Part shown: positions 7,395-11,250 of the stretch, piece after piece
Position numbering within the stretch: the stretch's first letter is position 1
Layout: the number at the start of each line of letters is the position of its first letter
From: Bacillota bacterium
GTDB taxonomy: Bacteria; Bacillota; Dehalobacteriia; UBA4068
Direction of reading: 5' to 3'
DNA length: 64,000 nt
Assembly (NCBI GenBank): GCA_024679955.1
Contig: JAILCQ010000017.1
Location: 1-64,000 of the forward strand
The notes under the pieces: model-generated
Databases searched by the model: none
Seen by the model: the letters and a program-made list of their open reading frames with translations, nothing else
What the model was told of the DNA's origin: nothing
Translations under genes and position numbers: made by a program

Positions 7395-8267
7395 CTATTC
7401 CTCAGCCAGACCGATCCGCAGCTGTCGGATATGTTCCGGCGTAGTGCCGCAGCAGCCGCCCAGCAGCTGCGCCCCCGCCTGACGGCACAGGGCCATTTCC
7501 GCGGCAAATTCCTGGGGCGACAACGGATACGACACGGCATTGTTCTCCGCATATTGGGGCTTGCCCGCATTGGGCTGCAACAGCACCGGCAATCCCGCCT
7601 GCTTCAATCCTTCGATGATCGGCGGATACTCTTTGGGATTCAAATCGCCGCAATTGGCCCCCAGCGCCGCCACGCCATGCTTTTGCGCAAAAGCGCAAAT
7701 ATCCGCGGTACGGTCCCCCATCATCGTGGCGCCGCCCCGTCTGGCGGTGCAGAAGGTCATGGTAAAAACCACCGGCAACTGCGGAGCCTGATCATGACAG
7801 GCCTGCAGCATCAACTCCGCCTCCGCCAGATGAAACACGGTTTCCACGATCAGGCCGGATAAAGGATACGCGGCCATGGTCTCCACCTGCCGGCAATAGG
7901 CTTCGTAGATCTGATTCGCGTCGCCGTTGCCGTAAGGCGGCAGCATTTGCCCGGTGGGCCCCATATCGCCGAAAACAAAGGCATGTCCATCGGCAGCCTG
8001 CAAGGCCGCTTCCATGGCGGCGCGCAAAGAATCATCCAATTGCTGATCCGTCAAATCGGAATAAATGCGGTTGAGACTGAAACTGTTGGTGGTCAAGCAA
8101 TCCGATCCCGCTTCCAAATACAGACGGTGGGCTTTTTCCACCAAATCGCGGCTGGTCAAATTATTATGGCCGCTGCGCATATCGCCGCCCATGGAGGCCA
8201 ATAAACTGCCCATTGCGCCGTCGAACAGCAATACCTTCCCCGAAGCCAGCGTTTGTTTAAAATCCAT
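7395..8267 (-). CDS. Homocysteine S-methyltransferase family protein
   Basis: A single-domain Zn-dependent methyltransferase of 290 residues, matching the N-terminal homocysteine-binding domain of MetH and the betaine-homocysteine methyltransferase family. Zinc ligands are C206 (GANCGD) and C272/C273 (GGCCGTTPEHI); the N-terminal FDGAMGSLL motif is also typical. The substrate donor cannot be told from sequence. There is no cobalamin domain, so it may work with a separate corrinoid protein or another methyl donor. It is the first gene of the minus-strand operon running to rng. A TATAAT at 8340-8335 could be its -10, but I see no good -35. Confidence 0.87.
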   Translation of the reverse strand: MDFKQTLASGKVLLFDGAMGSLLASMGGDMRSGHNNLTSRDLVEKAHRLYLEAGSDCLTTNSFSLNRIYSDLTDQQLDDSLRAAMEAALQAADGHAFVFGDMGPTGQMLPPYGNGDANQIYEAYCRQVETMAAYPLSGLIVETVFHLAEAELMLQACHDQAPQLPVVFTMTFCTARRGGATMMGDRTADICAFAQKHGVAALGANCGDLNPKEYPPIIEGLKQAGLPVLLQPNAGKPQYAENNAVSYPLSPQEFAAEMALCRQAGAQLLGGCCGTTPEHIRQLRIGLAEE

Positions 8268-8407
8268 GCGTCAACCCTCCATTCCCCTATCCCTGCGGCC
8301 GCCGGGCCGCCGGATATATCCTGCTTATTCATTTATTATATCGCAATAACGGTTTAAAGGAAAGACCCCATTCTTATCATTCTCCCCGCCGGTTTCTCCG
8401 CCACATG

Positions 8408-8510
8408 ACAAAACAGCGCCGCCTGTGGGCAGCGCTGTTTGTGCAGAGAATAACATGAGAAGAATGGATTTGAAAAAGGAAGGTTGAAAAAATTATACTT
8501 GGAACAGTAT
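8408..8510 (-). ncRNA. Predicted small RNA A of a tandem pair
   Basis: A unit of about 100 bases begins just after a TTGACG-17-TATAAT promoter and ends in a hairpin (AAACAGCGC / GCGCTGTTTT, 8440-8410) followed by TTTTGT. The body has a small stem (ATACT/AGTAT) and a CU-rich single-stranded part (CCTTCCTTTTTC, ATTCTTCTC) able to pair with ribosome sites. No convincing reading frame: the 64-codon frame here would start inside the promoter. The right-hand unit is built the same way and shares short motifs. The class is unknown; the arrangement recalls tandem CU-rich sRNAs such as the LhrC family. Confidence 0.6.
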
Positions 8511-8516
8511 ATTCTT

Positions 8517-8545
8517 ATTATATACATCCCCTTGCCGGCCGTCAA
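8517..8545 (-). promoter_or_regulatory. Promoter of small RNA A
   Basis: TTGACG (8545-8540), a 17-base spacer and TATAAT (8522-8517). The nearest downstream features are the CU-rich body and its terminator, with no gene in range. Confidence 0.7.
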
Positions 8546-8629
8546 CATTTAATTGCAAAGAATTTATATCTATTTATTGCATCACCGGCAATTTTTTTTG
8601 CGTTTTTCGATAATCTTGTTTTTATTCCA

Positions 8630-8740
8630 AAAACAACAAAACAGCGATCGCCGAATATCGCTGTTTTATTGTGAGTGGATAGCATGAAGGAATAAATTAG
8701 AGAAGAACAACTCAGGAGAAATTATCCTTATTTCAGTATA
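8630..8740 (-). ncRNA. Predicted small RNA B of a tandem pair
   Basis: About 110 bases lie between a perfect TTGACA-17-TATAAT promoter and an intrinsic terminator with an 11-bp perfect stem (AAAACAGCGAT / ATCGCTGTTTT, 8667-8638) followed by GTTGTTTTT. The 5' part shares TATACTG and the ATAATTT run with unit A, both have TTCTTCTC, and both terminator stems contain AAACAGCG. The middle holds TTTCTCCTGA, complementary to a strong ribosome site. I infer a duplicated trans-acting small RNA; it may still be a leader of unknown purpose. Confidence 0.65.
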
Positions 8741-8745
8741 GTTAA

Positions 8746-8774
8746 ATTATAGAACATAAGGAGCCGCTTGTCAA
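8746..8774 (-). promoter_or_regulatory. Promoter of small RNA B
   Basis: Consensus TTGACA (8774-8769), 17-base spacer, consensus TATAAT (8751-8746), among the best housekeeping promoters in the window. Confidence 0.75.
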
Positions 8775-8873
8775 GCATTTTATCCGCAAATCAGGACAAT
8801 TTCTTTTTCGCATATTTTTTCCGGCGCAAGCATACATATAGAACAAACCCTAAGAATACGCGAGGAATAGAGC

Positions 8874-9617
8874 ATGGGCAGCATTGGCGACTATAAACGG
8901 CCGGAGATGAAACGCCGCGCCGCATCCCGGCAAAGCAAAAGAATCCCCGGCGGACGCTTGGCCAGACAGATCCTGGCCGCCGCCGCCTTCGTCTTACTGG
9001 TGACGGCGGGGATCGGCGCAAAAAACTGGTTGGGCGACAGCGCCCGCTATGTGGCCGGCGCTGGCCTGGACGCCGGCAACAGCTGGCTGGATTTCAGCCA
9101 AAGCCGGCCGGTAAACGGCGAAAGCGATCCCGGCGCTTTGCTCCCTGCCGGCGCTGCCGCCTCCGCCGGCTATGACGCAGCCCTGGCCGCCGGGGAGGCC
9201 AAAAGTCAAAACGGCGGCGCAGCCGCGGAGGGCAGCCAAACGGAAGCCGCGCCGGAAACCTTTGTGGCCCCCGCCTCCGGCGTTGTGGTCAAAGACATGG
9301 CCCTGGACGAAACCGGCGTCACCAGCGAAAAAGGCATCCTCATCCAGGGCGCGGCAGGGCAGGCCGTCATGGCCGCCGCCGCCGGCAGCGTGCAGTATCT
9401 GGGCAATTGCGACAGCGGCTACATCGTAGAGATCCGCCACGGCGGCGGATATACCAGCGCCTATCAGGGTCTGTCCTCGCTGGACGTCAGCGTGGAACAA
9501 ACGGTGGCCGCCGGGCAAACCATCGGCGTCAGCGACAGCGGGCAATTGCTCTTCACCCTGACGCTGAACGGTCAGGAGGTAGATCCCATAGAATATCTGT
9601 TCGCGGACAACAAGTAA
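8874..9617 (+). CDS. Degenerate LytM/M23-domain membrane protein, SpoIVFA-like
   Basis: 247 residues: a basic N-terminus, one membrane segment (about 31-50, LARQILAAAAFVLLVTAGIG), an Ala/Gly-rich linker and a C-terminal LytM-fold domain from about residue 130. The metal ligands of active M23 peptidases (HxxxD and HxH) are missing; the last strand reads LLFTLTLNG, so it should not be an enzyme. This organisation matches SpoIVFA, which anchors and inhibits the sigma-K processing protease SpoIVFB. In Bacillus spoIVFAB lies beside rplU-rpmA, which here is about 7 kb away. No spoIVFB is visible. ATG start with GAGGAA upstream. It could also be another degenerate LytM protein. Confidence 0.6.
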   Translation: MGSIGDYKRPEMKRRAASRQSKRIPGGRLARQILAAAAFVLLVTAGIGAKNWLGDSARYVAGAGLDAGNSWLDFSQSRPVNGESDPGALLPAGAAASAGYDAALAAGEAKSQNGGAAAEGSQTEAAPETFVAPASGVVVKDMALDETGVTSEKGILIQGAAGQAVMAAAAGSVQYLGNCDSGYIVEIRHGGGYTSAYQGLSSLDVSVEQTVAAGQTIGVSDSGQLLFTLTLNGQEVDPIEYLFADNK

Positions 9618-9768: not shown

Positions 9769-11250
9769 ATGTACATTGGCAAACAATACTATGCCCGGGA
9801 GCAGAATTACGAAACTTTGGATATACAGCAGCAACGGCAGATCCACAGCGCCGCTTTGCGGGTGCTGTGGGAGCATGGGATGTCCTTGCATCAGCCGGAG
9901 GCTTTGGCCCTGCTGCAGCAGGCGGGCGCCACGGCGGAACCGATAGAGGGCGGCGCTTTTATGGTACATTTGCCTCCCGCTTTGGTGGAATGGGCGATAC
10001 GCCAGGCCCCCAGCCAGGTGACCCTGTTCGACCGCAACGGCAAAGCCGCCATGTTCCTGGAAGGGAAAAACGTCTATTACGGAACCGGCTCCGATACGGT
10101 GCTGCTCAGCGATTATGAAAGCGGCGAAAGCCATCCCTGGACCAAAGACCAGGTGGCCCAGGCCGCCAGATTATGCGACGCTCTGGAGCATATCGATTTC
10201 GTTATGTCCATGGGCATCATTTCCGACGTGCATTACAGCGTCAACACCCGGGAACAGTACGCGGCCCTGATCCGCAACACCACCAAACCGCAAGTGGTGG
10301 TATGCGACGGCAAAGAAGACCTGGAAGACGTCTTCCGCATGTTCATCGCCGTGCGCGGCAGCGCCCAGGCCCTGCGGCTGCGGCCCTATGCGGTGGTATA
10401 CAACGAGCCCACCTCGCCTTTGGTCAATTCCGACACCGCCATGGACAAACTGCTGCTGTGCGCCGATTACGGCGTGCCCTCCAATTATGCCACCGGCAGC
10501 CTGTCCGGGGCCACCACGCCGGTGACCGCCGCCGGCACCATCGTGCTTTCCACCGCCGAATGCCTGTTCGGTTTGACCGTTCATCAATTGCGCCGCCCCG
10601 GCGCGCCCTTTGTTTTCGGTTCCGGCGATTCTCCCATGGATATGAAAACCGTGCAGGCGGACTATGCCCATCCCGTGTGCATGCAGGTACAGGGCGGCAT
10701 GTGCGATATGTCCCGCTTTTACCGCCTGCCCTGCTGGGGACAGGCCGGCGAAGGCTGCTCCAAATTAGCGGACGAGCAGGCCATACAGGAAGGCACCTTC
10801 ACTTTGCAAATGGCCGCCCTGCAAGGCGGCAATCTTACCCATGACGTGGGCTATAACAATTTCGGGCTGGGCTTCTCTTTTGAAACCCTGGTCATGCACA
10901 ACAACTGCATCGGCCAAATCAAGGAGATCATGAAAGGCGTAGAAGTCAACGAGGAAACCCTGGCTGTAGACTTAATCATGCAAACCGGCTGCAACGGCGA
11001 TTTCCTGCGCAGCAAACTGACACGAAAAGCAGCCAAAACCATGTGGCGGGGAGAATTGAACGACTATTTGGCCTACAAGGATTGGCGGGCCGCCGGCAGC
11101 CTGTCCATGGGCGCCAGAGCCCATGCCATGGTGCAGGATATCCTGGCCCATCACCAACCCCAGCCGCTGGACCCGGCTGCAGATCAACAGATCGAAGCCA
11201 TCCTGGACGCCGCCCGCCGGCAAATCCCCGAAAAAGAAAAAGAAAAATAA
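9769..11250 (+). CDS. MttB-family (non-pyrrolysine) corrinoid methyltransferase
   Basis: A 493-residue member of the trimethylamine methyltransferase (MttB) superfamily. These barrel enzymes move a methyl group from a quaternary amine to the cobalt of a small corrinoid protein. The frame is open throughout with no internal TAG, so it belongs to the large non-pyrrolysine group, whose known members use substrates such as glycine betaine, carnitine or proline betaine; the substrate here is unknown. ATG start behind GGTAGGGGGG. No corrinoid protein or MtaA-type partner is adjacent. A RACo-like activator lies 8 kb away, and the SAH/homocysteine genes are nearby. A strong terminator follows. Confidence 0.88.
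   Translation: MYIGKQYYAREQNYETLDIQQQRQIHSAALRVLWEHGMSLHQPEALALLQQAGATAEPIEGGAFMVHLPPALVEWAIRQAPSQVTLFDRNGKAAMFLEGKNVYYGTGSDTVLLSDYESGESHPWTKDQVAQAARLCDALEHIDFVMSMGIISDVHYSVNTREQYAALIRNTTKPQVVVCDGKEDLEDVFRMFIAVRGSAQALRLRPYAVVYNEPTSPLVNSDTAMDKLLLCADYGVPSNYATGSLSGATTPVTAAGTIVLSTAECLFGLTVHQLRRPGAPFVFGSGDSPMDMKTVQADYAHPVCMQVQGGMCDMSRFYRLPCWGQAGEGCSKLADEQAIQEGTFTLQMAALQGGNLTHDVGYNNFGLGFSFETLVMHNNCIGQIKEIMKGVEVNEETLAVDLIMQTGCNGDFLRSKLTRKAAKTMWRGELNDYLAYKDWRAAGSLSMGARAHAMVQDILAHHQPQPLDPAADQQIEAILDAARRQIPEKEKEK

Follow-up and report, generated by a model that had tools for sequence, protein, structure and literature searches.

The intergenic gap described here, part of a window of 64,000 nucleotides, carries two tandem units whose features support their reading as diverged small RNA (sRNA) genes outside any known family. 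On balance, we favor the view that they are sibling sRNAs under a ModE-like repressor, made when molybdate or tungstate is scarce, in a design like that of PrrF1 and PrrF2. The units, their homology, the operator that they share and the gene company of that operator are computed from the DNA, as is the finding that the same genome encodes Hfq, a ModE-type protein, and five molybdenum hydroxylases (PF02738).

Two tandem units in an AT-rich gap

The gap is about 600 bp long and AT-rich, with 33-45% GC versus 55-70% in the surroundings. Each unit in it begins with TTGACA or TTGACG, a 17-bp spacer, and TATAAT, followed by a pyrimidine-rich stretch of about 70 nt and an intrinsic terminator (Table 1). 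The promoter hexamers match the consensus at 12 of 12 positions in unit 1 and at 11 of 12 in unit 2; in 1.7 kb, five promoter-like sites were found versus 1.6 expected. The terminator hairpins reach -20.6 and -24.7 kcal/mol, with T-rich sequence after each, the U-tract of unit 2 being weak (TTTTGTCATG). Whole units fold better than their shuffles (z = -4.8 and -5.7), an excess for which the terminator hairpins account. A simple terminator scan listed neither hairpin, probably on account of its stem/loop rules. Both units thus have what is expected of an intrinsic sRNA gene, their own promoter and a Rho-independent terminator around a short noncoding stretch. An earlier note on this DNA had described two minus-strand units with near-perfect promoters, a CU-rich body, and a terminator, and the hexamers, spacers, and hairpins are as it described them.

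Table 1. Features of the gap and its flanking genes (window coordinates)
Feature	Position	Strand	Basis or remark
Homocysteine S-methyltransferase gene	7395-8267	minus	Flanks gap; ATG at 8267
M23 peptidase gene	8874-9617	plus	Flanks gap on opposite side
Unit 1	8630-8774	minus	Tandem with unit 2
Unit 1 -35 hexamer, TTGACA	8769-8774	minus	Promoter scan
Unit 1 -10 hexamer, TATAAT, 17-bp spacer	8746-8751	minus	Promoter scan
Unit 1 operator, TATACT-GAAATA-AGGATA, 5 bp past -10, over predicted start	8723-8740	minus	Matrix: second best in 846 kb
Predicted sRNA 1, about 110 nt, body pyrimidine-rich	8630-8739	minus	Fold and unit alignment; predicted transcript
Conserved block TCATGCTATCCACT in sRNA 1	8673-8686	minus	Alignment; by eye, complement of weak Shine-Dalgarno and AUG; putative function
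Unit 1 intrinsic terminator, AAAACAGCGAT / ATCGCTGTTTT and T tail	8628-8667	minus	Folding
Unit 2	8402-8545	minus	Tandem with unit 1
Unit 2 -35 hexamer, TTGACG	8540-8545	minus	Promoter scan
Unit 2 -10 hexamer, TATAAT, 17-bp spacer	8517-8522	minus	Promoter scan
Unit 2 operator, TATACT-GTTCCA-AGTATA, 5 bp past -10	8494-8511	minus	Matrix: fifth best in 846 kb
Predicted sRNA 2, about 105 nt, body pyrimidine-rich	8402-8510	minus	Fold and unit alignment; predicted transcript
Conserved block TCATGTTATTCTCT in sRNA 2	8444-8457	minus	Alignment; putative function
Unit 2 intrinsic terminator, AAACAGCGCTGCC / GGCGGCGCTGTTT and weak T tail	8402-8440	minus	Folding

Could the transcripts encode proteins instead, an outcome that the earlier note had named as speaking against its reading? 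The search for a coding frame that fits them and has a ribosome site gave none. The short frames present were checked and rejected as genes, having no ribosome sites and running across the terminators. A conserved ATG was likewise rejected as a start codon: pyrimidines stand upstream of it, and its frame reads through the terminator. Elsewhere in the window, a gene for an MttB-type methyltransferase (9769-11250) forms one open frame with no in-frame amber codon, and its product is therefore probably a non-pyrrolysine member.

The units are diverged copies of each other, as had been proposed. Global alignment of the parts after the -10 scores 94.5, versus 35 +/- 7 for shuffled sequence, and none of 1,000 shuffles scores as high. 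Blocks common to both are the -10, TATACTGnnnnAAGnATAATTT, the terminator stem AAACAGCG/CGCTGTTTTGT, and, at equal distance in each unit, TCATGnTATnCnCT. Taken alone, the CU-rich middle is weakly alike (128 of 2,000 shuffles reach its score), and the copies of TTCTTCTC once listed as shared prove to be out of register between the units. The conserved UCAUGnUAUnCnCU is the complement of a weak Shine-Dalgarno sequence, five bases, and AUG, which makes pairing of the sRNAs with start regions plausible.

Do such RNAs occur elsewhere? Neither unit matches any Rfam family, PrrF included, and the models for LhrC and RoxS/RsaE give no useful score; the earlier note, too, had recognized no known family. 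It had also proposed looking in related genomes, where no RNA homologue came to light: a BLAST search with the whole gap in 60 relatives, including the congener, matched only the operator block described below. A pattern for the 5' end, with 3 mismatches allowed, found no further sRNA in 35 genomes. The exact promoter-plus-operator pattern gave ten matches in about 85,000 genomes, with unrelated sequence behind each, and these were taken as chance; a search of phages and plasmids for the RNAs gave nothing. In the congener (91% complete) the whole locus is absent, both flanking genes included, while other relatives, in the flanks that were read, have the methyltransferase gene without the units.

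A shared operator and its gene company

Five base pairs after the -10 of each unit, over the predicted start site, lies an 18-bp palindrome, TATMCT-N6-AGKATA. The earlier note had seen that the units share TATACTG and an ATAATTT run. They do, but probably as part of this palindrome rather than as a similarity of the RNA bodies, and the same element stands before molybdenum and selenium genes. An RNA hairpin formed by TATACT...AGKATA was considered and rejected; it forms in unit 2 only, and a DNA palindrome therefore fits better. The shared TATACTG/ATAATTT block is best read as the DNA operator of a molybdenum/selenium regulon, judging by its position and recurrence. Its arms are retained between the units, while its center differs and much of the body has diverged.

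Where else does the operator occur? The one informative BLAST match in the 60 relatives was the operator block in a genome of the same family (G007), where it precedes a MoeA-like/ModA operon. In the whole genome under study (G000), the exact palindrome has three sites, the two units and C2:15888. The looser form TATNCT-N6-AGNATA has four in 846 kb of this genome, namely, these three and C25:65981; all four lie in promoters, and the two outside the units precede molybdenum or selenium genes. Other arm spacings occur 0 to 1 times in the same 846 kb. C25:65981 is the promoter of a FecCD-FecE-periplasmic binding protein-MoeA operon of molybdate/tungstate type, FecE being assigned by position. At C2:15888 the operator lies in the promoter of a LysR gene that passes the NCBIfam cutoff of NF040786 (“selenium metabolism-associated”); the neighboring gene encodes a YedE transporter of selenium type (TIGR04112). 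In the units the operator follows a separate TATAAT; in the molybdenum and LysR promoters its left arm is the -10, 17 bp past the -35. Without promoter context, the palindrome occurs at chance level across the family.

Further observations concern these loci. The C25 operon (C25:65958-70300), headed by the same operator 2 kb beyond the end of the window, is a probable molybdate/tungstate uptake operon of an unusual FecBCD type. In the selenium locus (C2:8000-24000), the LysR and YedE-type transporter genes both have operator-like sites, and the stretch that separates the LysR gene from a divergent DMT permease gene holds three more ATTATACTTG-like repeats with a 14-bp period. An operator-like site with one mismatch lies upstream of a molybdenum hydroxylase operon at C37:2472.

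The pattern TTGAC-N18-TATNCT-N6-AGNATA was searched in 35 genomes of the order and gave 12 exact promoter-plus-palindrome sites. Clear molybdenum genes (modAB, moeA, mop) follow five of them, FecBCD transporters without a molybdenum marker three, the selenium-type LysR gene two (one in each of the congeners G000 and G001), and unrelated genes the other two (a PTS permease and a protein with a subthreshold YpsA match). Downstream of the molybdenum and transporter sites stand tandem TOBE (mop) in G019, ModA-ModB in G012, MoeA-like-ModA in G007, FecCD-...-MoeA in G000, binding protein-MoeA-FecCD in G001, FecCD in G002 and in G034, and a binding protein at a second site in G007. From the moeA-linked cases, the substrate of the three FecBCD transporters may be of molybdate type, or else a different metal complex. 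Molybdate uptake of lower affinity is known from the MolBCA system (PMC7759655). Some matches with one mismatch (an FMN-riboswitch-like leader in G015, cold-shock genes) were set aside as resembling ordinary promoters.

A matrix built from seven sites of other genomes, and none of the genome under study, ranks the fec-moeA site first in the 846 kb, followed by unit 1, lysR, the yedE promoter, and unit 2; six shuffles of the 846 kb contain no score that high. Because the pattern used in the search is a relaxed form of the motif in the units themselves, this rank is partly circular; the independent evidence is the gene company of the sites together with the yedE site, which lies outside the pattern.

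The candidate regulator and its alternatives

Which protein would bind the operator? The ModE consensus published for Escherichia coli is ATCGNTATATA-[N6]-TATATANCGAT; boxes that diverge from it have been described for single-domain ModE proteins (PMC545781). The present operator has the 6-N6-6 layout of the ModE box, and a TAT...N6...ATA palindrome is common to the promoters of the units and of the molybdate genes. The E. coli-type box TATATA-N6-TATATA was not found at the units, where the arms read TATMCT/AGKATA. Layout and gene company (mod, moe, mop) are thus those of the ModE regulon of Proteobacteria (PMC545781), but the inner arm bases are CT/AG rather than TA/TA, and the local ModE-type protein has a DNA-binding domain only. 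This is a 128-amino-acid helix-turn-helix (HTH) protein without molybdate-binding TOBE domains, whose gene and that of a molybdenum hydroxylase are about 7 kb apart. It matches TIGR00637 in part (39.6 bits, versus a full-length cutoff of 98.5), exceeds the cutoff for HTH_1, and weakly matches the molybdenum-binding repressor 2ijl in the PDB, among other LysR-type HTHs. The ModE-type HTH is present in all seven genomes with sites before molybdenum or FecBCD genes, and none of the 16 genomes lacking it has such a site (Fisher p = 0.007, a guide only since the genomes are related). Most likely, going by these patterns, an ample supply of molybdate (or tungstate) leads a ModE-type repressor to bind the operators. 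In some relatives (L127, L129, L130, L133, and L138) a ModE-type HTH appears, by eye, to be fused to MocA-type nucleotidyltransferase or YqeC-like proteins, joining a regulator to a cofactor enzyme of selenium-dependent molybdenum hydroxylases, apparently without TOBE domains.

How might the system work? What we infer here concerns transcription, the protein that binds, the signal to which it responds, the direction of control, and the targets. Each unit would be read from its strong sigma-70-type promoter and end at its intrinsic terminator. When the cell is well supplied with molybdate or tungstate, the ModE-type repressor would sit on the -10 of the uptake genes and, at both sRNA genes, on about +1 to +18; a protein bound just past the -10 would block initiation at the sRNA genes. 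In times of shortage the operators would be freed, and uptake genes and sRNAs would be made together. The pyrimidine-rich RNAs, probably with Hfq, would then pair with the ribosome sites of mRNAs, the most useful targets being those of molybdenum enzymes, whereby the metal would be spared.

Are such targets visible? The duplex energies computed against 732 start regions, a prediction proposed in the earlier note, give unit 1 a slight pairing excess at the molybdenum hydroxylase starts (p = 0.015, uncorrected; 2 of 60 shuffles) and unit 2 none. Most top-ranked predicted targets are simply purine-rich and unconvincing. The complementarity of the CU-rich stretches to ribosome sites, to which that note had also pointed, is present but does not convincingly exceed that of shuffled sequence.

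The operator might belong to another regulator. Tandem siblings controlled by the selenium-metabolism LysR protein or some other factor, with selenium, sulfur, or redox state as the signal, seem rather unlikely to us, even though the operator lies in the LysR gene's promoter in both congeners and before yedE; at C2 the LysR protein would then regulate its own gene. LysR and ModE have the same type of HTH, and selenium and molybdenum meet in selenium-dependent molybdenum hydroxylases and formate dehydrogenase. LysR boxes, however, are usually T-N11-A, odd-spaced, and upstream of the -35. G012, moreover, has the modA operator and a ModE-type HTH, yet no close homologue of the selenium-type LysR, and the majority of sites precede molybdenum or FecBCD genes. 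Or is there no such control at all, the sRNAs being constitutive or otherwise regulated, with a palindrome that arose by chance or belongs to the promoter for some unrelated reason and was carried along by duplication? That the four sites in 846 kb are all in promoters, the other two before molybdenum/selenium genes, that shuffled sequence never scores as high, and that the arms were retained while the center and much of the body diverged make this unlikely, against the lack of family enrichment without promoter context and an operator position unlike that in the molybdenum promoters.

Finally, the units could be attenuator leaders of the downstream homocysteine S-methyltransferase gene and no independent sRNAs, which we consider quite improbable. 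The gene lies on the same strand, its start is about 135 bp past the unit 2 terminator, and, as mentioned, the U-tract there is weak. Attenuation, however, does not call for two successive units that each have a full promoter and terminator. No alternative structure was found, nor any leader peptide equipped with a ribosome site. The stretch between unit 2 and the gene contains a TATAAT of its own, and relatives carry the methyltransferase gene without such units in the flanks that were read.

Known sibling RNAs and the meaning of the operator

How would ModE-repressed siblings compare with known systems? PrrF1 and PrrF2 of Pseudomonas are Fur-controlled tandem siblings that were found by a Fur box plus terminator (PMC4211561). 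The present units, too, are homologous sRNA genes in tandem, each with a metal-repressor-type operator and its own intrinsic terminator, the metal here being assigned by gene company. The siblings of P. aeruginosa are 95% identical and iron-responsive (PMC4211561), whereas the present units are far more diverged, unrelated to them in sequence, and equipped with a molybdenum/selenium-type operator. In staphylococci, IsrR is a Fur-controlled, iron-sparing sRNA, as experimentally shown (PMC9410917). Its Gram-positive host, repressor boxes at the promoter, and single-stranded pyrimidine motifs have counterparts here, as may its metal-sparing role, but IsrR is a single, iron-regulated RNA with C-rich loops and has no sequence relation to the units. 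The csRNAs of Streptococcus have pyrimidine-rich unpaired stretches, again like the present units. They are several related sRNAs under one regulator, CiaR, but the regulator is another one, and their model (RF02379) scores 19 bits at the units versus a cutoff of 57.

LhrC and RoxS/RsaE, to which the earlier note had likened the pair, are CU-rich and of similar length, and LhrC occurs in tandem copies. No operator of the present type is known for them, and, as mentioned, their Rfam models give no useful score. Since part of the sequence shared by the units reads as the operator of a molybdenum/selenium regulon, it speaks for metal-responsive siblings like PrrF sooner than for an LhrC or RoxS parallel.

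Iron-saving sRNAs are known in many bacteria. In the literature searched, which leaves most subscription journals outside, no molybdenum- or tungsten-responsive sRNA was found, nor any sRNA in the ModE regulon of Proteobacteria. It is a tentative suggestion, then, that these are the first molybdate/tungstate-responsive sRNAs, ModE-like-repressed twins through which an anaerobe spares molybdenum, with selenium metabolism tied in via the shared operator. If so, an anaerobic lineage has evolved the design of twin RNAs under a metal repressor for a metal other than iron, and molybdenum supply, selenium transport, and posttranscriptional control would be linked in a way that can be tested. The operator would also open up the molybdenum regulon of bacteria whose ModE-type proteins lack a known sensing domain.
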